DNA from: Dictyophora rubrovolvata
Lineage: Eukaryota; Basidiomycota; Agaricomycetes; Phallales; Phallaceae
Assembly (NCBI GenBank): GCA_029959195.1
Contig: CP114119.1
Coordinates: 806,001 to 870,000, forward strand
Length of the DNA: 64,000 nt
Reading direction: 5' to 3'
The notes under the pieces are model-generated. The model did no database searches. It was not told the origin of the DNA and worked only from the letters and a program-made list of their open reading frames with translations. The position numbers were made by a program, and so were the translations under genes. Below are positions 13,870 through 63,167 of the stretch, one piece after another; the stretch's first letter is position 1; every line of letters begins with the position of its first letter.

Positions 13870-16800
13870 TCATCCTTGATTCTCCTTCCTCCCATAGCGC
13901 GCGAGAAGATTGCTGTAAGTTTCCGATATCTATTGAGGTGACATGAAATAGATATCCGGGTCATTGACTGTTTCCCATCAGGTAACTTCAGAGTCTAACC
14001 TTTTGGGTCTTTTCCTTACTATCGGGCACGTATCGGGCAATCACCGTCGCACATTCGAACCACCTTCTGGCTTCATCCAAATACGAGGCTCTGTCATGGT
14101 ATCGCGATGAGATTATTTGTTCCAAGATACCAACTGATGTATTTGATCTTCTAAAGATCACAATCACTTACGCTAAACATTCCACCCCTGTGTTATATGA
14201 TGTGCTAAGAAGCCACTGCCTTTCATCTATGGGATATCTCTGGTCTCCCAGTCAACTATCTGATGGGTTATAGAAGGGAGATATCCTGGGACTCAACTTG
14301 AACCTCAGGTTCTTCCGTAGTACTGCTTTCTTCAATCACGTTCACAGCTTGCTCCACGTAGCCTATCGCCTTTGTCCTATCCGAGCTGGTATTTTTGGCC
14401 AACAAAATAGTGCAAATAGCCCTAAGCCATCTGGAAAATTTCTCTACCGACACGTAATCCCGGTCGAGGCAAGCGTGCAAAATAGCTTCCAGTGCCGAAT
14501 ATAGGACTTAGCAAATAATAAAAATGATATATCAATATTTATTAGGCTATAACGAACGCAAGGGCTTTTATATTATATTAAACTCACCATTCACTGGGCA
14601 GTTCTTATTCACCCACTGAATGTATAATCTCGTTGAATACGGGAGTAATTAAGAAGCAGGTAATATCTCAACTTACCAAGATATCCGCGATAGCTTCAAA
14701 TGTGCTTGCTTTCACCTTTGGCAACTGTGATGCTTCCTAAAACAACAACATTGTTTAGACATCAAAAGTGATTTCCCAAAAAGTCCAGATATCAAATCAA
14801 ACCTCAATGGAACCTAAAACGCCTTGCCAGTCTTTCAGGAAACATCGTTGCTCTGTCTCGAACACAAGCGAGACGTGTATCAATGAGTCCACACGGTCTT
14901 CTTCAATCGTATCATATAATTGTCCGTTATTAACAGCAAGTTTGACACTATTTTTGAACTCGTCAATATCACGGCAGATCCGCTTGCGTAGTAGTTCCGC
15001 CTGTATAAAAGAAAACAATGCAGGTGTGCTTAGTATAACTTGAATTTCAACACGAATCAAACGGGAAATGAGTTCAGGAAGGAAGAAAGGTGACCTGTTC
15101 AGCATTTGTCCCTAATTGGCGAACGGCGAAGACACGACATGAGATACTCGAAAAGGAGGCTAAAATAATGTGGCCATGCACAAGCTTGTCTGGATCCGTG
15201 ACTGACGCCTTGCAATACAAGTCCATAAACTAAATATAGCCCCTCAGGTCAGTCAGAGAAGTCAGAGAAAAACTCCACGCGACGTGAGATATATTACGGC
15301 ACGAGATAAATCAAATAGCTCAGCGAGCTGTTCCTCGGAATCTGTCCATTCCGAACATCCTTGAACTGCGGTATTGTACGCTGTTCGCCACAGCCAAGAC
15401 ACCTCTTTCACCATGGCAGGGAAGTCTTTCTTTTCTTGCGCCGATTCGCACACGGTTTTTCCTAAAAATCGGAACGTATGGAGATATGGTGTGTAAGATG
15501 ATAGAATTGCGATGGTGTTCGTATATCAAATTCTGTTCAAAAAGGGTGTTTACCTGTGTTAAAGTGCCCAATCAATGTCTTCACCAGATTCTTTCTGTCT
15601 CGACTAGTGATCAGCCCGACCGAGATAAACACTATGATATCAAAGAAACGCCAAATCGAGACGTACGTATCGGCAGCCGGTTGTTTTAAAAGCTCAATTA
15701 CTAGACGTATGATGCAACTGTCATGATGATGACTCAGATCCCAAGCAAAAAAGGGTCCCATCTCGCGTCAAAAAGAAAAAGATTTCTCACCGAATCATTG
15801 TGAGAGCTTCGATATCATTGTCAAACCCATTTTGCGCTGTTAGGAACTGTAAAAGGGAAACTAAAACTGTCAGAAGAACTGTTTTTAATCCAGCGTCGTG
15901 AGCCAGCTGAGTTGCGAGAAGAAGCATCCTCCGATCAAAATCTTTGGCCTGAACGAGATCTTGTACCGCGCGTATAGCTGTCAAATTATGTAAATGACAA
16001 AACGAATCGATTCCGAAATAGTTTGGAATTTAGAGCCTAGGTAATAAAACCAAAGCCAGCTGCAGCACCACATACCTTCGGCTTCTAGACCTAAGAATAA
16101 TAATGATATTTAAAGAGGGATCCCGTAACAGACGAAGTTTTAGGTGGGATGATGATGATGAAGACAAAAATAAATAACCATTCCTAAAAAAACACAAACA
16201 AACAACTTTTTACCTTGGTTAATAGCGATCAAGAAGACAATATAGTGAGTGGCTGCTTCATTGTTACGACAAAGTCGCGCCACAGCCGTGGCACGACCAT
16301 ATTCCTGCTGTTGGAGATAACACAACGCCGCCTTTCGAAAACATTTTGCATTATTGTTTCGAGCCATTGATTTGAAGACATCGTGAGTTCCCAGGGTGAA
16401 CCAATCCGCAGCCTTATCCCAAGCCTTGGCGTTGTAATGGCGCTCACCGAATTGCCACAATAACTAAAGCGGGAGAAAAGAGAGAAAATACGTAAATAAA
16501 AATGGAAACAAACCCAGAATCGAACCAATGTTAGGCATGGGGGGCATGGAGTATTAAAAGAAGGGTTCATACTGATTGACATGCTGTGGTTGGGACTTTC
16601 GGAAGTTCATAGTCTCCACGTTCAGAGATACCTATAGATATGCAATGCATGTTTGTCAGAGGGGTGGGTCCTATTGATCCATCAATCACATGGAGTTAAT
16701 TACTCTCACTCACAAGAACATGCGTCTCGGATTGCCTTAATGGCTCTTCCGTGATCAGTATCTCGAGAACAGTGAAATATCAAGGCCAACAAAATCTTGT

Positions 16801-19800
16801 CAATAGCAGCTCTCCCCGCAACTTCGGGAATGGCTAACCCCGTTTCCAGGAGGAGTCGATGAACTTGCGTTACTAGCACCCTTTGTTGAGGCAAAAGATA
16901 TCATTCGGAAAAATAAATCAAAAGAAGCAAACAACGACAAAGGGTGGATTTCAACGGACTGTTGTTGTGCCATACCGCGCAATTCCTGAAGAAGTCTGTA
17001 TGTACATAGTGTACGCACCAGACGGATATTCTTGTTTAAGTGAACTGTTTCAACGAAAAAAAAATTGGCGTGCGACGTCTTACTCTGAAACTTCTGTTTC
17101 CTTAAAACTTGCATGTCCGATTATAGATCGAAAGGCTGTTGAGAAATGATTTCCGTATCAAGGGGTGGAAAGTGTATAATGTGTAGCGTTGGAAGGTGAT
17201 TCGAAATTAGTATTGAAAATTTTAAAAATAGAGCATAAGATGAGTGATGTTCTTTTTTTTCTTGACCGGAGCCATGGTAGGGGCAGGGCGCACCTTCAAA
17301 CAACTCATTATCGGGAGCCCCTTTCCGCTTCAATACGGCGAGACGCATCCATCGCACCGGCTGAAAATCCGAGTGCCTCTGTTCAACATTAATGATTGAT
17401 AATAAAAAGAAGGGATTCATGTGTGAAAACATAAACCAATCCGGTTAGTGATGAAGAACCCACAGTATCAGGCGTATCATCTATTGATGTTATTAGTTCG
17501 TGTAGAGTGACTTCAGCTCTGTTCAGATTTTCTTGATCAATGGACGAAGCGAGATAGTACACCCTGGCTACAATAATGATGTAACAAAAGTCAGTCAAGG
17601 GTTGGAAGTGCCATGTTCCCTTCGGCGATCGTGAGCCAATATATGAAAAGGAGTCTAACCTAAATTTCGGAGAATCGTCCGCTATAGTAATTCAAAAAAC
17701 AAAACAGAACAAAACAAAACACAAGAAGGTTACCTGAATAAAATCACAAGCTACTTTTTAATATAAGTAACATTGGTTTGCTTACTTTAAGTTCCAATAT
17801 GCCAGGTGTTTCTGATGCAGCCAGGTTCTCAACTAAACTCAAAGCTTTCTGTATCCACTTGATAGCATCTTGGGCATATTTTCCGTCGGAAACCGCATTT
17901 GACGACGTTGGTTGTTGTGGCTGTTGTCCCCTTTTGACTGCTTGCCCGCCCGCGACACCTTTGCCAATTCCCAGAAGTTTGGACGCTAGCTGCTCTCGCT
18001 TAAGAAGAAGAAAAGAGTTTAAAGTTAGCTTCCTTCCTTCCTTCACCCCACATTTCCTTTCAACATAATGGCACACGGCTTTCTAGCCGACCGAACGGCA
18101 ATTCTACCCAAAGGCAAATCATAACGATAACTTACATCTTGAGCCGGCAAACTAGATAGACGATGCTCATTTACTTCTGTTGTCGTTCAGTGGGTTTCAA
18201 AATCATATAAAATAAAGGAAAAGAAATAATGATGTCAGCCAGGCGAAGAAAACAGCCTAAGATGGATCATGTGCCTGTAATTTTGCGGAGCATAAACTGA
18301 GCAACGCCTTCGTTTCCTTCCTTCCATGCCTTAAAAAGGAATGGGGAAAATCCATAAAAAAAGCGCGCGATAAGAACGCGGCCGCAGGTAAACAGAAAAT
18401 AAGGCGAGGTGAACGTACAGCTTCCATTCGACAGGTGTAATAGACAATGAGGGCACGATCTCTTGATTGCGTGTGAACCTCGTCAAGTGCATCCGCATTA
18501 ATCACGAGTTCTTCAATCTAACAAAGCATATAATAAGTAAAACTATTAGCCCTCATAATCAGGAATACACCATGGCATCGCTTTTAAGCCTTATCAAACT
18601 ATTGACCGGCGTTTTTATTTTAGAGGAAGAAGGGCAAAGGTCGGGTGGATGATGGCTGAATGCAACTATACTAACCTTCGCAGCCGCTGAAAGAACGGCA
18701 CCGGCGAGAGCATGGTTTCCGATGTCTAAAGGCGGACATGAAGTTCACACGCAAAACGGGAAAAAGAAGATTCAAGAGAAAAAGGGAAATAATAAAGGAA
18801 GTAAAGACGTGCGAAAAAAAAGACCAGGACAGTTTCGGATGGTTTCTGGGCGTATTATGAAAAAGAAAAGATAGCGCGGGTTGGGCGGCGGCCACACCGG
18901 TTGACCAATGGAGGAAGGGGGAAAAGCAAACAGAACAAGAGATCGAAAGAGATCGAAAGCACCTGAAAGAGCGGATCCTGTTTTGCTTGCCAATTGTAAC
19001 ACGTGTAGTAGCGCTAGAAACAAGAACCAGAGTGGGACAATATGGCGCGTCAAAACAAAAGAGGGAAAAGGCCCTAATTTCGTTTGAATTGAGATAGGAA
19101 CGGGATGCGTACTTTGTATTCCAGGCTTCTGCTCCAAACCTGCCTCGACCAATCGGAAAGCGGCCAGCCGGACTTGATATATTTCATGTCATACCAAAAC
19201 AGTAATAAAAAGGAGCGGTAGCTCATCCGTCGGCATAAAAGGATTCTTTTTGTTTAGGGCGAACAGTTTACTCACGAGCGGCAAATAACCTGAGGCGTCC
19301 TTCTTGATCCTTTCCTTGACGAAGAACGGCCGACATATTCCAAAGATTGACGCCTGATTGACATTAGCCCCCGTGCGAAGAGGAGATAAAAGAGCCACAC
19401 GAGTGGGGAGGAGAGACGTGGAGAAGAAATGGGATATAATGGTTGGTTGGGTGGGATAGATTGAAAAATTGCACGTGTTGTGGTAATATAATAGATGATG
19501 TTTCTAACCTTCCCTGTCAAGTTCATCAGCTAAGGATGACCACCCCTGTTTCTTTGAACCTTGACGGTGTTCAGTGAAAGATTCGGCTAGGTTGGCAAGC
19601 TTGTACAGGTCAGCAATCACGGTAACATCGTTTGAACTTTCGGCTGATAGTTTTGGCTTGATTTGCACCAATAAATCTGTTTCAAAGAGCCAAGGATTGC
19701 CGAGACATTAGCGAGAAAGAATGGAGCAGGGGGAAGGAGCAAAGTTGTTAAACAAAGAAAATTAATTGAAAAGGAAACACGCCTGTGATGGAGTTGTATA

Positions 19801-26139: not shown

Positions 26140-27493
26140 CTATCTGTAGGTGGGTTCCTGTCTATCCGGATAACCCGGATATCCTTGCGGTGGATACCCG
26201 TGGGAATACATGGTTGCACCTGTCATTCCTCCCACGATCGACGCTGGCGGTCCGTGGTATGTGGTGCTATGGTCCTCTTCCGAGTAGTCTGCTCCTCCTG
26301 CTCCAGTCAGCAGCGGATCTTTCACCTCCCAGACCGCCGCTTTGCTTCCCACACTAAACTCAAGATCCTCCTTCGTGATCGAGTCCCAGTATTTATACAC
26401 CATCATCACGCTAAGCAGCATGCACAGTGTGAAAAAAAACAGCCCATCAATGTAGTGTTTCACCCCGTTACAGATCGTCACGCTGAATACGAACAGCACG
26501 ACCTGTGCCGCCACGAAGAAAAATCCGCCGAAGAATATGTCCCCCAATGGCCATCGGTCGTCTAGCGTTCGCCACACCAGCAATAGCTGTGACAACACGT
26601 AAACTACGACACAGATCAATGGCCACAGAATGTAAACGATCCACAGCGCGATTGGATCGGTGAAACTGAACCCGGCGAAGCTCTTGAACGTCGCAATTGC
26701 GAGGAAGAACGAGACCCCAAACACGACCAAGCATGTCAGCCGCAGGAACTGAATAACACATCAAAGTGAAAGTAGACGATGTCATTATCATCATTAGCTT
26801 TTATTGAACACGCAGCACAACCAGTCACTGTTCGCACTTACCCATAGCGATAGTGGCGTTCCATCTTCGGCAAATTGGAACCCAACGAATCCATTAATTA
26901 ACAGACATGTATACGCTGCCGCGACCAGTCCCGTATAAACCGCTGCGAACCACTACAGAGGAATATTATTATTCAATTTCGCTCAATTTCTTAATCAAAA
27001 AAAAAATCAGTTATACACACGGGGTATGGTGCACTTGCAGTTTGGATAATCCCAGAATCGAGGAAGATAGCCAGGAATTCAATGACAGCGTACATATAGA
27101 AGAACGTCACGATTTCCTTGCGACCTAAGCGAAAAGCAATCGTTAGTTGTCTTTCCCTGTTCCTTCGCCCTGAACGTCATTGATATCATTACTCACCGAC
27201 AGCAGTATATTTACTACGAATATGGAGTATCATGATAATGGTCATTATAATGGCGACAATGTGTATGAAACATGTCGCTGCGCAAAATAAAAAGAGTCAT
27301 ATCGATGCTTCAGCCTCAGTCGTCATCATAATAAAGATCCCCACGTACACGGTTGAAAAATGAGTGTAGATGATATTTGAACATTCCGGCTGTAACAGGT
27401 TGGCTCAATGCCCTGTGCTGTCCCGACCAAAGGGCAAATTATGAGCGCGGCGGTTTGACATATATGATCGAAAGAGCCGAATTCCAATCCCAT
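26140..27493 (-). CDS. CHS7: Chitin synthase export chaperone Chs7
   Basis: Polytopic ER membrane protein needed for export of chitin synthase III. Five exons on the minus strand (27349-27493, 27197-27277, 27021-27124, 26842-26952, 26140-26748) sum to 1050 nt, 349 aa. Family signatures are the N-terminus [17 protein letters not shown], the [20 protein letters not shown] segment, [39 protein letters not shown] and [16 protein letters not shown] near the end. About seven hydrophobic segments can be seen. The cytosolic tail is Gly/Pro/Tyr-rich. The region upstream, at 27494 and beyond, is the long gene-poor block and must contain its promoter. Confidence 0.94.
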
Positions 27494-52881: not shown

Positions 52882-53064
52882 ATGGCATTGTATATATCAT
52901 GTAATTATGTGGACGTAGATGTAAAACAAGATTATCAGTGTAATTGTTGCCAAGACGCCAGCCCAATTGGCGTAGACGCCGGACAATGGGAGAGATAATA
53001 ATTCGGCACCCGATATTGTCTTGGTCTCTTCTTTCCAATCTATTTCTCTTTACTTTTTCCTTTA

Positions 53065-55172
53065 ATGGTTGATACTTTTGTGTCAACGTCTTTATATCAA
53101 CGGTCGCCGCTGGACATTTTGAGCAGACAGTCTTCTGGAAAGATAGCATCCCCGGACGGTTTTTTTACTCCAAGCTCCTCTAAATTTGTCATTCGCCATG
53201 GGGATGCAACGACGGTGACACCTCACAGCCCTCCTTCTCCTCTCTTGCATACAAGATTCAAAGCACATTCTGGATCAAGCACGGCAGCGTCATCGTTTCT
53301 CGATTATCGCGAGGACTATTCAGCCGATTCGGTGGGTCGGGCCATAACTAAACCTTCCAGGAAGGACGACGACGTTTGGTCGCGGGACGAAGACGATAGT
53401 ATCCATTATGATACAAGCTATGATTCTCAAACCTTGACATATCCAACTCCAGGGTTCCAATATATCATTGACGCGATGAAGAACAAATCTGCCGATCCCC
53501 CTTCGCCAATACCGTCATCTCCTGGTATTGTGCCTGATGAGCAGAGGTTATCATATATGTCAGCTGCATCCGCATACACTGTCAAGGATGAGCATCCCCA
53601 CAATAATTCTGACAGCTACCTCGACGCCGCAAACGGTGTGAATAGCACAGATCAATCAATAGTACCTCAAGTTATTGTCTCATCACCTCCACCGTCCGTT
53701 CGAGGATCATTTAATACTGACAGGCCTTCGATTGATGGTTCTTCTCAAAGCGCTCCGCTCCGGGCGCCGACGCAATATAGCGTGTCCAACTTCTCTAGAC
53801 CAAGACGTCTTTTCAATCAAGGGGACGAGCAGAGGAAATTCGAAGTTTTGGAACGCAATCGAGCCAGAAGTCCGACTCAGACGTCAGCGGATAGTCGTTC
53901 GGGAACACCAACGGGTCATACTCAATTAACTCATTTAAATGGAGTTTCACACCAAACGTCGGCACCTTTTAATCACGGTGCCACTTCCACTTTTGAAATG
54001 TCACCACCTGTACAATTGCAATCGCAATCGCCGACATCAACTCGCCCCATTTCACCTAATGGGCTTTTTGTTCCGGCATCTCTGCAACCGGGACAACGCA
54101 GTGCCACTCCTACAGGAAGGCACAGCCAAAGTCGAAGCCCAAGCCCAAGCCCAGCAAATGTCATAACAAATATCAGTAGCGCCCAGCCTACACCGGATGC
54201 ACAATCAAAAGAACAGCGCGCAGAATCGAATTATATCAGACTCCCGAACTTACCACCATCTCCGCGTGTTACTTCTCGAGTATCCCTTTACTCTACCTAC
54301 TCTTATTATCAACTTGACGACAGTCGCACACCATCGCCTTCAACTCCCGGTCCAACCTCAACTGAGTTTGGCGTTATTATGAACAACCGCACTGCTCCTC
54401 CTTCCAACAACACCGGCAGAGCAACACCTGGTTCGCAAGCCCCCACTCCCATGCCAGCCACGCCCGGACCACCCGCAGCTGAGGAATACTTGGTCCTTGG
54501 AATACAACACCACGAAGCTAATCGATTACAAGACTCGGCCGCGTGTTTCGAACGTGCAGCCACGTTGGATGGTGGATGTGGCGTGGGTATGTTAATGTGG
54601 GGTCTAACTCTCCGACATGCTTGGGGTGTGGCGAAAGATGAAAAAGCAGCATTTATTTGGTTGAGACGAGCAGCGGAGTCGGCTGTGGAAGATTTGGAAG
54701 CGGCCAGAGAGGGGAAGGAACAAGTTGCTGTTAAGGTTTGTTGTCGGCTTTATGGTTTCTTGATCTAAAACAAAATAACCAAGCTACCTTTCAGGCTGAG
54801 CTTGTTCTCGCTATTTATGAAGTGGGCCAATGCTTTTTCCATGGATGGGGAGTTCACCAAGACAAGAAGATGGCCGTTGTATGTATTATTCGGGATTACG
54901 TCTGGTTGTCGGTATATTAACCCTTTCCTTTTTAGAGCTACTTTCAGGTCGCAGCCCGACTAGGGGATGTCGATGCTCAGCAGGAGTTGGCATTCTGTCT
55001 TGCCAATGGCAAGGGCTGCAAAAAGAACAGAAAGGAAGCTGCTAAATGGTATCGAGCCGCTGTATGTTCTATTTACTTCATTTTACTACCTCATGCTGAT
55101 AGGTTATCCTAGGTCGAGCAAGGAGCAAGCTCTGTCGGACTCGCATGGATTTACAAATCCAAACTTCAATGA
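53065..55172 (+). CDS. SEL1-repeat protein, Skt5/Chs4-like
   Basis: Probably a regulator of chitin synthase or a related cell-wall scaffold; the SEL1/HCP-like C-terminus resembles the Skt5/Chs4 and Dsf2 group. Four exons (53065-54735, 54795-54878, 54936-55061, 55113-55172) sum to 1941 nt, 646 aa. The first 460 residues are Ser/Pro/Thr-rich and probably disordered. SEL1 units begin near EEYLVLGIQHHEANRLQDSA and continue through MLMWGLTLRHAWGVAKDE, IYEVGQCFFHGWGVHQDK, LAFCLANGKGCKKNRKEAAK and a last unit VGLAWIYKSKLQ. No CAAX box is present at the C-terminus, unlike Skt5 of yeast. Confidence 0.72.
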
Positions 55173-55504
55173 TAAACATATACTTTTCTCAGTCCCGTCG
55201 TTGACTCTCACCACTCCTTTTTCATTCCTTCGATTTTGACTCATTTCCGCAGCATACAGGCTTGACGTTGTTTCTTTTTCTTCTTCCCTTTTACTGCAAG
55301 AACCGAAAGTGTATTAATAGATTAGGCTAGGCAGCCTGGTATGTAACAGACATCAACTCTACATAACATAAGTAAATTATAATACATGCACTTTCCTTTG
55401 TTTCGTTTTTTCGTCTCAATCGTGGCAGTAAGACTATGCATATTAGGATTAAGTAAACATGTCCGTGTCCTTCGCTTCCTCCTATCACAAACACGAATTT
55501 CATC
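55173..55504. other. Intergenic spacer, SEL1 gene to MEI4-like gene
   Basis: 332 bp between two plus-strand genes. No feature recognised. Confidence 0.5.
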
Positions 55505-57034
55505 ATGGAAAAGGTCGACAATGCATTGGTCCTGGCTATAGTAAGTCCTAAAAGATACATCACTTCGACAATGTTCACAAGTTATGCTGTTAGGCTATTT
55601 GTATTGTCCGCAATAAACCCTCAGACCAATCACTGGCTTGTTAGTGCATTTCATAGAATTCTCCTCGTAGCATCAAATTAACACCAGCTTAGCATATATA
55701 CTTGATTTAAGAGAAAAATTCCCATTACAGCCTGAGGAGGTACCAACAAGAGAGGAACAAAACCAATGGAGGATACGCGCGTTGGCATTCGAGAAAGAAA
55801 ACGAATTTTTGAAGCTTCGGCTGCAGAAGCATGAGATAGGTGTGCAATACAAAAAAACCATTTCAAGGACACTGAGTCTGATGAACTACTAACAGAATTA
55901 TTGGCATCAAAATCGTCAAACCAGGTGGACAACTCTTCATCCTCACAGGCCCCCAAAAAAAGAAGAAAAGTCGAGACGAAGGCTGCTTTTCCTGATCCAG
56001 GCTCGTTGAGAGGATTATTGGATGAATTAGCCTCGGGTATGTCTTTTGCATGCATCTACATCTTCTAAAGCATATTGACTCTAGTGCTAACGTCAGGGCC
56101 CGGACTCCCCCTATTACAGGATTCGTTCGATATTCTAAGCTCCTTCCGTACATTGAAGAACGTCAACACAAACAGTATCTCAGAAACGCGAGAATTTAAC
56201 ACAGAAACAGTCTTGATTCCAAATGTAAAGAGGTCATTGAAGGCATTGGGAAAATTACTCGATGCTCTTCTGCTCAGGAACGAATCGAGTGGGTCTATTA
56301 TCGCTCGTTCTACAAGCATACACGTCGCAGACAAGTTTCGGGAGCTATTTCTTTCTCTTTTACGTTCGACACTTCCTTTGGCACCTCGCTGTACACTTTT
56401 ATCCGAAATTATGGAAGAACTTTGTTTTGGTATACTTAGGCCGGTTATCCAAGGATTTCATTTGACATCGGCGAGGATTTTCGAGCCATTGAGTAATAAT
56501 GGGAAGAACAAAGAGATAGAGGTAGACGTTCGTCCAAGCATGTTGCGCGTCATACAACAGCTGTTGGATTGTTTGCATAGTTTAAAAGAGGAGACGCGAG
56601 AAATACGGGAGTTTCTGGTCCTCGAGACCGCGAGAGAGATATCATCTTTGTGGGGAAAGAAGAGTGCCTCAGAAACAGTCGGGACACTAAACGAAGGACT
56701 GCAAAGACTGGCACGAAAGGACTCGTTGTGGTATCATTGTGCTGTCATAAACATCGCGCTGGAGGATCTGCCACAGAGGCCAATTGAGGACAACGATTCG
56801 ACAGTACTTTCGGAAATGGCTGCTGATCTCCTCTACAACCTTCCACGACTTTTTGAAGAAGAGGATCCAGTAGACGTCATGGCTCAAGGAATGATTCTTG
56901 CGATTGTTGAAAAAGCGTGGTTGAAGGGACTGTACAACTGCGAGAGAGAAGAGGAAGAGAACGCGAATGAAGAAAACAGCGAACGGACGGAAGAAAATTC
57001 TACGATTCACGAGTTTTCAAGTTCTTATCTATAA
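55505..57034 (+). CDS. MEI4/Rec24-like meiotic double-strand break protein (putative)
   Basis: Candidate homologue of Mei4 (Rec24 in fission yeast), a partner of Rec114 needed for Spo11-dependent breaks. Five exons (55505-55540, 55594-55643, 55688-55839, 55896-56036, 56085-57034) sum to 1329 nt, 442 aa. The joined N-terminus contains AIAICIVRNKPSDQS, a segment closely like the LALAIIRSKPAD block I recall from animal MEI4. It is followed by NQWRIRALAFEKENEFLKLR, matching the family's WKSKVEALEAE coiled segment. A nuclear-type basic patch (KKRRKVETK) and a long helical, Leu-rich C-terminal region follow. The two small first exons are inferred from phase and are essential to the resemblance. Length and domain order fit Mei4, but the C-terminal part was not recognised on its own. 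Confidence 0.6.
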
Positions 57035-57094: not shown

Positions 57095-57367
57095 TCACGT
57101 GTAAAGCGAACTGTCATCCTCCGGGGTAGTAGCATTAACGTACGCGACCAAATCGACTTCCGCCTTGGTGACGTACTTCCAGGGTATCAAGATCATACCT
57201 ACGAATCGACCGCCTTGTTGACCTTGTCTGTATTCGTCCGCGTTTGTTAGAATGATATTCTTTTCTTTATCAGTACAAACGAGTGTCCCGACAAATACTC
57301 GACCGTCTTGAATGCCAACTTGCCACGTACAACCCAAAAGCTTTTTAAGTCTGTCGATAGACGTCAT
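57095..57367 (-). CDS. NAA38: LSM-domain NatC auxiliary subunit Naa38 (Lsmd1)
   Basis: Small Sm-like protein, an auxiliary subunit of the NatC N-terminal acetyltransferase. A single exon of 273 nt encodes 90 aa. It starts MTSIDRLKKLLGCTWQV and has the Sm1 pattern IQDGRVFVGTLVCTDKEKN with the IILTNADEY turn, then the Sm2-like strand GRFVGMILIPWKYV. The start at 57367 is the first ATG in frame; the frame stays open upstream but only with GTG. It is tail-to-tail with the MEI4-like gene (60 bp) and head-to-head with DPM1. Confidence 0.85.
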   Translation of the reverse strand: MTSIDRLKKLLGCTWQVGIQDGRVFVGTLVCTDKEKNIILTNADEYRQGQQGGRFVGMILIPWKYVTKAEVDLVAYVNATTPEDDSSLYT

Positions 57368-57464
57368 AAGTAAGAATGTCGTTGGTTGGTGATCGGTAGA
57401 CGGATGCACAGCGACGAGTCCCGAAGTCACGGTGCAACACGTCACACTCCTTACTTTTCGTTGT
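57368..57464. promoter_or_regulatory. 97-bp bidirectional promoter (NAA38 / DPM1)
   Basis: The NAA38 start (57367, minus) and the first DPM1 ATG (57465, plus) are 97 bp apart. If DPM1 starts at 57495 the shared space is 127 bp. No TATA element is visible. Confidence 0.6.
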
Positions 57465-58601
<1,137 letters not shown>

Positions 58602-59345: not shown

Positions 59346-59474
59346 TAGTTGCCTTTTACGAACTGAGGAGTGAGTACATTATTCACTAATTACCGTTGAT
59401 ACGAATATCGACTTCTTGTAGACTCTATTATAGGTCAGTTAATTATACATTAGTTGTCTTTCACCAACTGAGGA
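59346..59474. repeat. 24-bp imperfect direct repeat in promoter/leader
   Basis: The words at 59346-59369 and 59451-59474 both follow TAGTTG-CTTT-AC-AACTGAGGA and differ at three positions. Their starts are 105 bp apart. A shorter word, ACTCTATTATA, also occurs twice nearby. Confidence 0.8.
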
Positions 59475-59508
59475 ACTCTATTATACTAGTCGTACTCTAT
59501 TCCTATTG

Positions 59509-61024
59509 ATGTCTGCACAACATCAGGCTACAACAGGGGGTGCTGGCTTCGCCTTTTCCCAACAAGCCTACGATCATATCAGTACCGTTTATCAAAAGGC
59601 TCTCGTATCTCATCATGAACATGCTCAAGTCGTACTCGATCGTCTTACTTCCTCGGTTTTGAAACCCCGATCTCGTATTTTGGATGTGGGTTGCGGAACG
59701 GGTAGACCCGTTACAGCTCATTTTGCTGACCATGGACACGACGTCCTCGGCGTAGACCATTCGGCTGGTATGCTCAGCCAAGCTCTCGCCAATGTTCCCA
59801 ATGCAAAATTCTTGCAAGTCGATATGACTTCCTGGGAACCCTCCGACCCCGGTTCATACGACCTGGCAATCGCATCTCATTGTTTGTACAACCTGTCTAT
59901 TGCTCAAATCAAGTCTTTGATATATAAACTTTCGCGATGGATTAAAAAGGACGGTCTCGTTGTCATCGGCATGTCCTATAACCAAGGAACTTTGGACAGC
60001 CGCGGTGCAAAGTTCGATGAAAACGGCTGGTCAGAAGGTTTTCGTAATACTTTTCTCGGATACGACTTTTACGATGCCACGTTCGGAAATGAAACCGCGT
60101 GGGTCGAGTTAATAAAGACTACGGGTTTGGAGATCGTCGAGGTTGATCGCGCGATTTGCACGAAAGCGAACAATCCTGATCCAGATCAACAATTTTATAT
60201 TACGTCGAAAAGAGTTCAGGATAACCCGCTTTTGGGACCGTTCCCTATTCCTAACGAGTTTGGTGGTCCTCTGAAGCTTCGGCCCGGTCCTTGGGCTGAG
60301 TTGGCGGCCAAACTCGATGCGGACGCTGTCAGAGGGGTTACATTCAAAGCGTTACTCCAACAACCTAGCTGTCGCAAAGTTCTTTACTTTTCTGAATCAA
60401 TCACTCCTCTTCCCCCAAGTAAGTTTATAGAAAGTATTACCAGATTATGTATTCTCTTTGTTTAACATTACGTTTCCAGTTCCCAAGGAGTTCAACATTG
60501 AAATACATCAGACGTTAGATCTGCCTTCTCCTGACATCGAACTCGGTTCCTATGACGGAATTATGCTCGGTGCCGTCCTTCAATCTGTATCTTCACCTGA
60601 AGATTACCTCGACCGTGCACTTCGAGCACTCTCGCCGACTGGTCCTGCTAAAATTCTTGTCATCCAGGCGGCTCCTGATAACGAATTAATGAACATTTTC
60701 AACCAGACCTTCGAGGGACTCGATTTTCCACATGTACATCAGGGTTATATCCTAAGAGAAGCGGAGAAGAAATGCAAAGCTGCTGGACTCCAGAAGGTAG
60801 AGTATTCGTATATCAGGAGTGCTGTTAACTTTGGCACTGTTGAAGGCGAGGAGAAGATTGGGGCCGTGGCGCAGCTTCTTTCTAGAGTTTTGACGGATGA
60901 TGCGAGTGTTCAGGCACAGTTTGAAGGGCGTTTGAGGAAACTTTTGAAGATTCAGTTTTTGTTCAAGTCGAATGGGGAGATTGCATCTCAAGCGGTTCTT
61001 CTCGTTGCAGAACGCGAAACTTGA
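59509..61024 (+). CDS. SAM-dependent methyltransferase with C-terminal methyltransferase-like half (paralogue A)
   Basis: Class I SAM methyltransferase of unknown substrate. Two exons (59509-60418, 60480-61024) sum to 1455 nt, 484 aa. Motif I is RILDVGCGTG at residues 56-65, followed by VLGVDHSAGMLSQA, FLQVDMTSWEP and YDLAIASHCLYNLS, ending the first half with WIKKDGLVVIGMS. After the intron the second half shows SYDGIMLGAVLQSVSSPEDY, LSPTGPAKILVIQAA and AEKKCKAAGLQKVEY, a pattern like the late part of a methyltransferase fold but without a motif I. This resembles the degenerate fold of anamorsin. A close paralogue follows in tandem. The ATG at 59509 directly precedes SAQHQ. Confidence 0.85.
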
Positions 61025-61620
61025 GTGAGAAGGACTTGGATTGGTTGATCGAGGACATTACAACATTAAAATACCAACAGAAGAAATGAAACCATGAATG
61101 TATTTTAGATATATCGGATATGCTCTACATGTGATTAGGACATGTTCAAATAAACACAAGGTTACCCTTATTCTATACTATTTGAAGTCGGAGCTGGAAC
61201 CGACTTGTAACTAGAACTTCAAGACAGGACATCCAATTACTAGTATATATTTTATCTTTTTCCTAATTGCAATAACTGAAATATTCATATTTAGTTACAC
61301 CTAGGCTGAACTTCCTCACCAAGTCGAGAAGCATGCAGGTGTGAAAATTTCTCTCGGATTTTCAACTTCATCTAAACACGAACCCCATTGGCAACGACAG
61401 CGCTCATTTATGAATTCATTCATACATATTCCTCGTTTACGTTCAGTATTTGCATAACTAGTCCATTCAAGTGATCGACCGATCCTGTTTTGGTCAGTTT
61501 GGGGAGTATCCAACGCCGCCCAGTCCAAAAGAGACATGCAAAATATGAACGCTTCGTAGAATACAAAAATCTCCCAACACTATACCATAAGCAGCAAATT
61601 CCCTCTCCCTATCCCACTTT
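61025..61620. other. Intergenic region between the tandem methyltransferases
   Basis: 596 bp. It does not share the 24-bp direct repeat found upstream of paralogue A, as far as I can see. No gene-like frame. Confidence 0.5.
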
Positions 61621-63167
61621 ATGTCTGCAACGCAGGGAAGCGGCTATGTCTTCTCCCAACAAGTCTACGATACCATCTGCACAGTCTACCACGACTTTGT
61701 ACTTCCCCACAATGAACACGCTCAAAACGTACTTGACCGTCTCTCTTATCACGGACATCTCAAACCACACTCTCGCGTGCTCGAAGTAGGGTGTGGACCT
61801 GGCAAACCTATAACAGCCTTTTTTTCTAATAACGGACATAACGTTACCGCCATAGATGCTTCGTCTGGCATGCTCGATATCGCTCGCAAGAATGCTCCCT
61901 ACGCGAAATTTCTGCAGGCTGATATGACGTCTTGGGAGCCGTCCGAGTCTGGTATCGAGACTCCTTGTTATGACGTGATTGTCGCCTCCCATTGTCTGTA
62001 TAGCATGTCGGTATCCCAGGTCAGATCGTTGTTCTACAAATTCACTCGTTGGGTTAAGAAAGATGGGATAGTTGTTATCGGCATGTCTTATAACCAAGGC
62101 AATTTGAGAAGAAACAATCGCGAGCTTGACGAGCGCGGTTGGGCCGAAGGTATAACGATTAATTTTCTCGGATACCAGTTCGAAGATTCCTCGTGTGGGC
62201 GGGCAGATGCATGGGTTGATTTAATCAAGTCCACGGGGTTGGAAATCGTTGATGTGGACAGTAGTATGCTTTACAGAGCGGATGAATCCGATCCGGACGT
62301 GCAGTTTTATATTACAGCAAAGAGGGTTCAGGAGAATTCTTTTTTTGGACCGTTTCCTATTCCTAACACGATCGGCGGTGGTATTCCTTCAAAGTTTCGA
62401 GGAGATGTCGATGCTTGGGTTGAGTTGAGAGGAAAACTGGATACGGTTAAACTTAAAGAGGCTATACTCGATGCCTTGATTCAAAAACCCAAGTGTAACA
62501 GCGTACTTTCCGTGGCAGGCCAAATTACTCCGGGTAAGTTTTTTTTTTTGATATATTCGAATCCTTCTTCGTATTCAACGTTCTGCCACACGCAGTTGTC
62601 GAAGAATCAAGCGTTAGAATACAGCAAATACCAGAATTACCTTCTCCTGACATTCAACTCGCCTCTTTTGACGGTGTTTTACTCGGCGATGGCGTTCTCT
62701 GTACTGCTTCTTCACCTGAAGATTATCTCGATAATGCAATACAGGCAATCACACCGACCGGTCCTGCTAAAATCATCATTGTCGAATGTGCCCCCGATAA
62801 CGAATTAATGAACATGCTAAAGGACGCTTCTAAAGGTCTCGATTGCGATATTCCACTCGGGCATTACAGTGGTTATTTATTACAAGAGGCCGAAAAGAAA
62901 TGCAAAGCATGTGGACTGGGAAAAATAAAATATTTGCATGCTGGATGTACTCTTAATTTTGGTGTTGCTCTTGAGGGAGAGGAGAGGATTGCGTCTGCGG
63001 CACGTTTGCTATCTCGGGTGTGCACTGACAATGTTGACGTTCAGGCAGAATTAGAAGGACGGTTTAAGGAGCTTTTGAAAATTCAGTTTTTGTTTAGACC
63101 TCTGGGGGAGATATTTACTCAGATGGTTGTTCTTGTTGCTGAACGGGAAGCGATTAGCTCGCATTGA
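61621..63167 (+). CDS. SAM-dependent methyltransferase with C-terminal methyltransferase-like half (paralogue B)
   Basis: Tandem paralogue of the gene at 59509. Two exons (61621-62533, 62596-63167) sum to 1485 nt, 494 aa, and the intron lies at the same place and phase as in paralogue A. Motif I is RVLEVGCGPG, with VTAIDASSGMLDIA, FLQADMTSWEP, YDVIVASHCLYSMS and WVKKDGIVVIGMSYNQGN. The second half again lacks motif I (SFDGVLLGDGVLCTASSPED, AEKKCKACGLGKIKY) and ends QMVVLVAEREAISSH. Both copies look intact, so both are probably used. The substrate is unknown; nothing nearby makes a clear biosynthetic cluster. Confidence 0.85.

Follow-up and report, generated by a model that had tools for sequence, protein, structure and literature searches.

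Mei4, which belongs to a trio of conserved Spo11 helpers, enables the chromosome cutting that starts meiotic genetic exchange. The fission yeast protein is called Rec24, the Arabidopsis one PRD2/MPS1 and the mammalian one MEI4, and the family diverges so fast that homologues get missed. The Mei4 motifs were reportedly defined by Kumar et al. 2010, whose paper might already include proteins from basidiomycetes. In a 2010 review, mouse and yeast Mei4 are given 8% overall identity and six short motifs (PMC3966222), and another paper reports Mei4 of Sordaria as not identified (PMC6288613). In yeast Mei4, as described in PMC10393192, SSM1 (helix 1) has hydrophobic residues every one to two positions and SSM2 is opened by a nearly invariant Trp. 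A literature search, which was short of most subscription papers, returned no paper joining Mei4 plus Rec24, or Mei4 plus Rec114, with basidiomycetes or mushrooms, and none on Rec24 and Rec7 in a fungal context; papers that mention both Mei4 and a name in Coprin- do exist. Here, we analyzed a stretch of 64,000 nucleotides (the window) from contig CP114119.1 of Dictyophora rubrovolvata. Its plus-strand gene at 55505–57034 probably encodes the Mei4 homologue of this fungus (Rec24, PRD2/MPS1 or MEI4 elsewhere).

N-Terminal Similarity to Mei4

On the basis of reading frames and splice signals, the candidate gene was modelled with five exons and four GT-AG introns, giving a product of 435 residues. 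Mei4 (PF13971) was the sole Pfam match of this product up to E = 10 (E = 0.0015, 18.5 bits), spanning residues 8–117 of the protein and positions 16–110 of the 340 in the profile. Residues 1–79 alone gave the Mei4 match at E = 0.0096; residues 77–435 alone had no Pfam match. Among nine shuffles of residues 1–125, used as the negative control, none matched Mei4 and two matched other families at E of about 0.1. The NCBIfam search of the candidate protein returned nothing up to E = 1, and sequence searches of the PDB returned nothing relevant.

The candidate N-terminus was also compared directly with human MEI4. Its pairwise score was reached by none of 20,000 shuffles, and in a profile comparison with the human N-terminus the real score lay above all of 200 shuffles (200/200). 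These controls support a genuine similarity to Mei4 over about residues 6–70, as judged from the sequences, and the likeness to animal MEI4 noted in the first-pass annotation is upheld by them. Homology of the N-terminus to Mei4 is likely. In the unspliced window, the best tblastn site for residues 1–71 of human MEI4 was EEQNQWRIRALAFEKENEFLKLRL at 55752–55823, a match that is weak alone (E 0.56, 20 bits).

The hydrophobic segment LVLAIAICIV (residues 8–17) fits the SSM1 pattern of the Mei4 family (predicted helix 1). W53, encoded at 55767–55769, falls opposite the Trp of both human MEI4 and Arabidopsis MPS1 and agrees with the nearly invariant residue that opens SSM2. R48 precedes W53 by five residues and may be compared with R29 before W34 in yeast, the yeast positions being taken from a description and not from an alignment.

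Gene Structure and Splice Choice

There is a real gene at 55505–57034. Its start codon lies at 55505, with an in-frame stop upstream at 55454, and its stop codon ends at 57034; the final reading frame has 321 codons, a length expected about 4e-5 times per 64 kb of random sequence of the same composition. The introns measure 53, 53, 56 and 60 nucleotides in order. Exon 1 (55505–55540; MEKVDNALVLAI) opens the hydrophobic helix that precedes IVRNKPSDQS and is followed by a GTAAGT donor at 55541. Exon 2 (55594–55639; AICIVRNKPSDQSLA) carries the SSM1-like block, which resembles that of human MEI4 (ALAIIRSKPADKS). The first-pass annotation had derived the N-terminal block from the joining of these two short 5' exons, which indeed gives LVLAIAICIVRNKPSDQS; exon 3 (55693–55839) adds a second helical block that carries the segment with the Trp. 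Exon 4 (55896–56036) encodes a Ser-rich linker with a basic stretch, within which PKKRRKV (residues 96–102, 55952–55972) resembles a classical nuclear localisation signal, and the protein may be nuclear. Exon 5 (56097–57034) encodes the C-terminal region, which is without a family match; folded alone without an alignment it appeared mostly helical at low confidence, with a mean predicted local distance difference test (pLDDT) score of 45.8.

The predicted splice junctions represent one of many possible choices. The first three introns allow 100 open splice combinations, 12 of which keep IVRNKPSDQS. By a crude donor score nine combinations tied for best, and the block is kept in two of them, namely the 435-residue model and the one with intron 2 at 55644–55687. 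A product of 442 residues, the length of the first-pass model, can be obtained via donor 55644 and acceptor 55688 of intron 2 plus acceptor 56085 of intron 4, and our guess is that such alternative sites at introns 2 and 4 were the source of that model. The length was reproduced in this way, but the 442-residue variant matched no family; therefore, the model that supports the Mei4 assignment is the one of 435 residues. In the proposed check against the Mei4 profile, the 435-residue model matched only Mei4, but below the curated cut-off, and the 442-residue variant gave no match. The 439-residue splice variant matched Mei4 at E = 0.0019; the 442- and 438-residue variants lacked any Pfam match. 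The visibility of the Mei4 match therefore hinges on three residues at intron 2. The first 124 residues of a variant that skips the block matched the DNA damage checkpoint protein LCD1 (E = 0.013, under the cut-off), which was taken as a chance coiled-coil similarity.

Several of these observations weigh against the assignment to Mei4. The candidate's 18.5 bits fall short of 25 bits, the curated gathering cut-off of PF13971, and we do not claim the protein as a member of this Pfam entry. The match vanishes in the 442- and 438-residue variants, and the C-terminal part of the candidate had no detectable match to the human and Arabidopsis C-termini. Together with the wealth of open splice combinations and the loss of the block in seven of the nine tied ones, such results would suit an unrelated helical nuclear protein that resembles the MEI4 N-terminus by chance, aided by the choice of splice sites. 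We regard this explanation as unlikely, since the shuffle controls with human MEI4, both pairwise and profile-based, argue against it, and the splice variants align to human MEI4 nearly equally (score 71 for the intron 2 variant versus 72). Moreover, the cores IVRNKPSDQS and EEQNQWRIRAL are independent of the splice choice because they lie within exon 2 and exon 3, respectively, and their order and place near the protein start are those of human MEI4. The positive control, Arabidopsis PRD2/MPS1 (sequence as printed in PMC9957857), is an accepted relative and scored lower than the candidate on the same profile (13.2 bits, E = 0.061), also under the cut-off. The human and plant Mei4 C-termini likewise have no match to each other. 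Our confidence in the Mei4 assignment is nevertheless slightly lowered because the 435-residue model only ties for the best donor score and two variants no longer show the Pfam match. Altogether, the sole Pfam match of the 435-residue model, the shuffle controls and the lower score of PRD2 speak for the likely Mei4/Rec24 homologue that the first-pass annotation had proposed.

Genomic Context and Meiotic Gene Set

The whole genome (28.2 Mb, 11 contigs) was searched for partners and relatives of the candidate. One match to the Spo11/TopVIA N-domain and three to HORMA were over their cut-offs, and a match to the Mnd1 family was present; the Mnd1 search also gave sub-cut-off matches in 4 of 14 control genomes. 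The SPO22/ZIP4 gene reported earlier for the same window was recovered as a match to PF08631 at 16383–16466 on the minus strand, just over the cut-off (E = 2.4e-5, 28.2 bits versus 27.5) and short, covering 28 of 274 profile positions. Sub-cut-off matches in this search also occurred in 2 of the 14 control genomes. The SPO22/ZIP4-like gene occupies about 14280–17900 (limits set by eye) of the minus strand; the Mei4 candidate lies about 39 kb away.

Rec114 was not found in the genome with either Pfam PF03525 or Arabidopsis PHS1, in searches that ignored introns and were run without a positive control. This absence could be read as a sign of a Mei4-derived protein whose role has been lost or changed, for example one acting without Rec114. 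We consider such a history highly improbable: no stop codon interrupts the 435 codons of the frame, and the similarity falls in the part described as Rec114-binding. The Mei4 profile itself found nothing in a six-frame search of the genome, and the Rec114 negatives carry little weight because of this blindness and the lack of a working control.

No close paralogue of the candidate was found in the genome, three of the four match sites being its own exons. The fourth site, a weak match opposite residues 219–280 (E = 0.02), was taken as chance. Relatives were also sought in a viral collection, where none of five pattern matches was confirmed. The suggested basidiomycete origin of the DNA is supported by matches to DUF6533, which we take to be a family typical of mushroom-forming fungi, at no fewer than 144 genome sites (150 of 217 candidates scored), many of them on a single contig; Mating_N gave one genome match only, at 20.3 bits and under its cut-off.

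Neighbouring genes were also recorded. An LSM-domain protein (PF01423, E = 2.3e-8) is encoded at 57095–57517 on the minus strand, convergent with the Mei4 candidate. Just upstream of the candidate, the plus-strand reading frame at 53002–54768 has a weak, sub-threshold Sel1-repeat match (E = 0.019). Elsewhere in the window, a match to the chitin synthase export chaperone Chs7 lies at 26140–26760 (minus strand), and two neighbouring methyltransferase reading frames, perhaps a tandem pair, lie at 59443–60465 and 61591–62808 (plus strand).

Proposed Role and Comparison with Known Mei4 Proteins

The candidate is probably a divergent new member of the known Mei4 family and not a protein new in kind. 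Orthology and a function like that of Mei4 are suggested by the way the blocks are ordered and positioned, by the failure to find a paralogue and by the meiotic genes matched in the genome. In the most likely mechanism, drawn by analogy with yeast, residues from about 5 to 30 would fold into a hydrophobic helix around which the C-termini of two Rec114 subunits close, and W53, in the second helix, would pack against the same Rec114 dimer. The resulting 2:1 Rec114–Mei4 complex would bind DNA and gather on the chromosome axis, where it would let Spo11 make meiotic double-strand breaks. Binding of Rec114 and DNA, participation in break formation and expression in meiosis may all be expected of the candidate on this analogy. 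It is also conceivable, though quite doubtful, that mushroom-forming fungi keep only the Rec114-binding N-terminus of Mei4, with a longer turn between the helices and the rest replaced, so that the C-terminal partner on which their break complex is built would not be that of yeast or animals. If a mushroom Mei4 is confirmed, the Rec114–Mei4 model becomes testable in fungi with synchronous meiosis.

Among the known proteins, human MEI4 (PF13971) shares with the candidate an LAxAxxIxRxKPxDxS block followed by an EEQxxWR segment, both near the protein start, with 34% identity in the N-terminal alignment. The two differ in nine extra residues that the candidate has between the blocks and in its C-terminal part, which is not alignable. 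Arabidopsis PRD2/MPS1 has the same order of LAIA, R.K and then W and is 27% identical in the N-terminal alignment, whereas its pairwise score against the candidate is barely above that of shuffles. With fission yeast Rec24 and budding yeast Mei4, judged from the description of yeast Mei4 in PMC10393192, the candidate appears to share the hydrophobic helix 1 and the SSM2 Trp.
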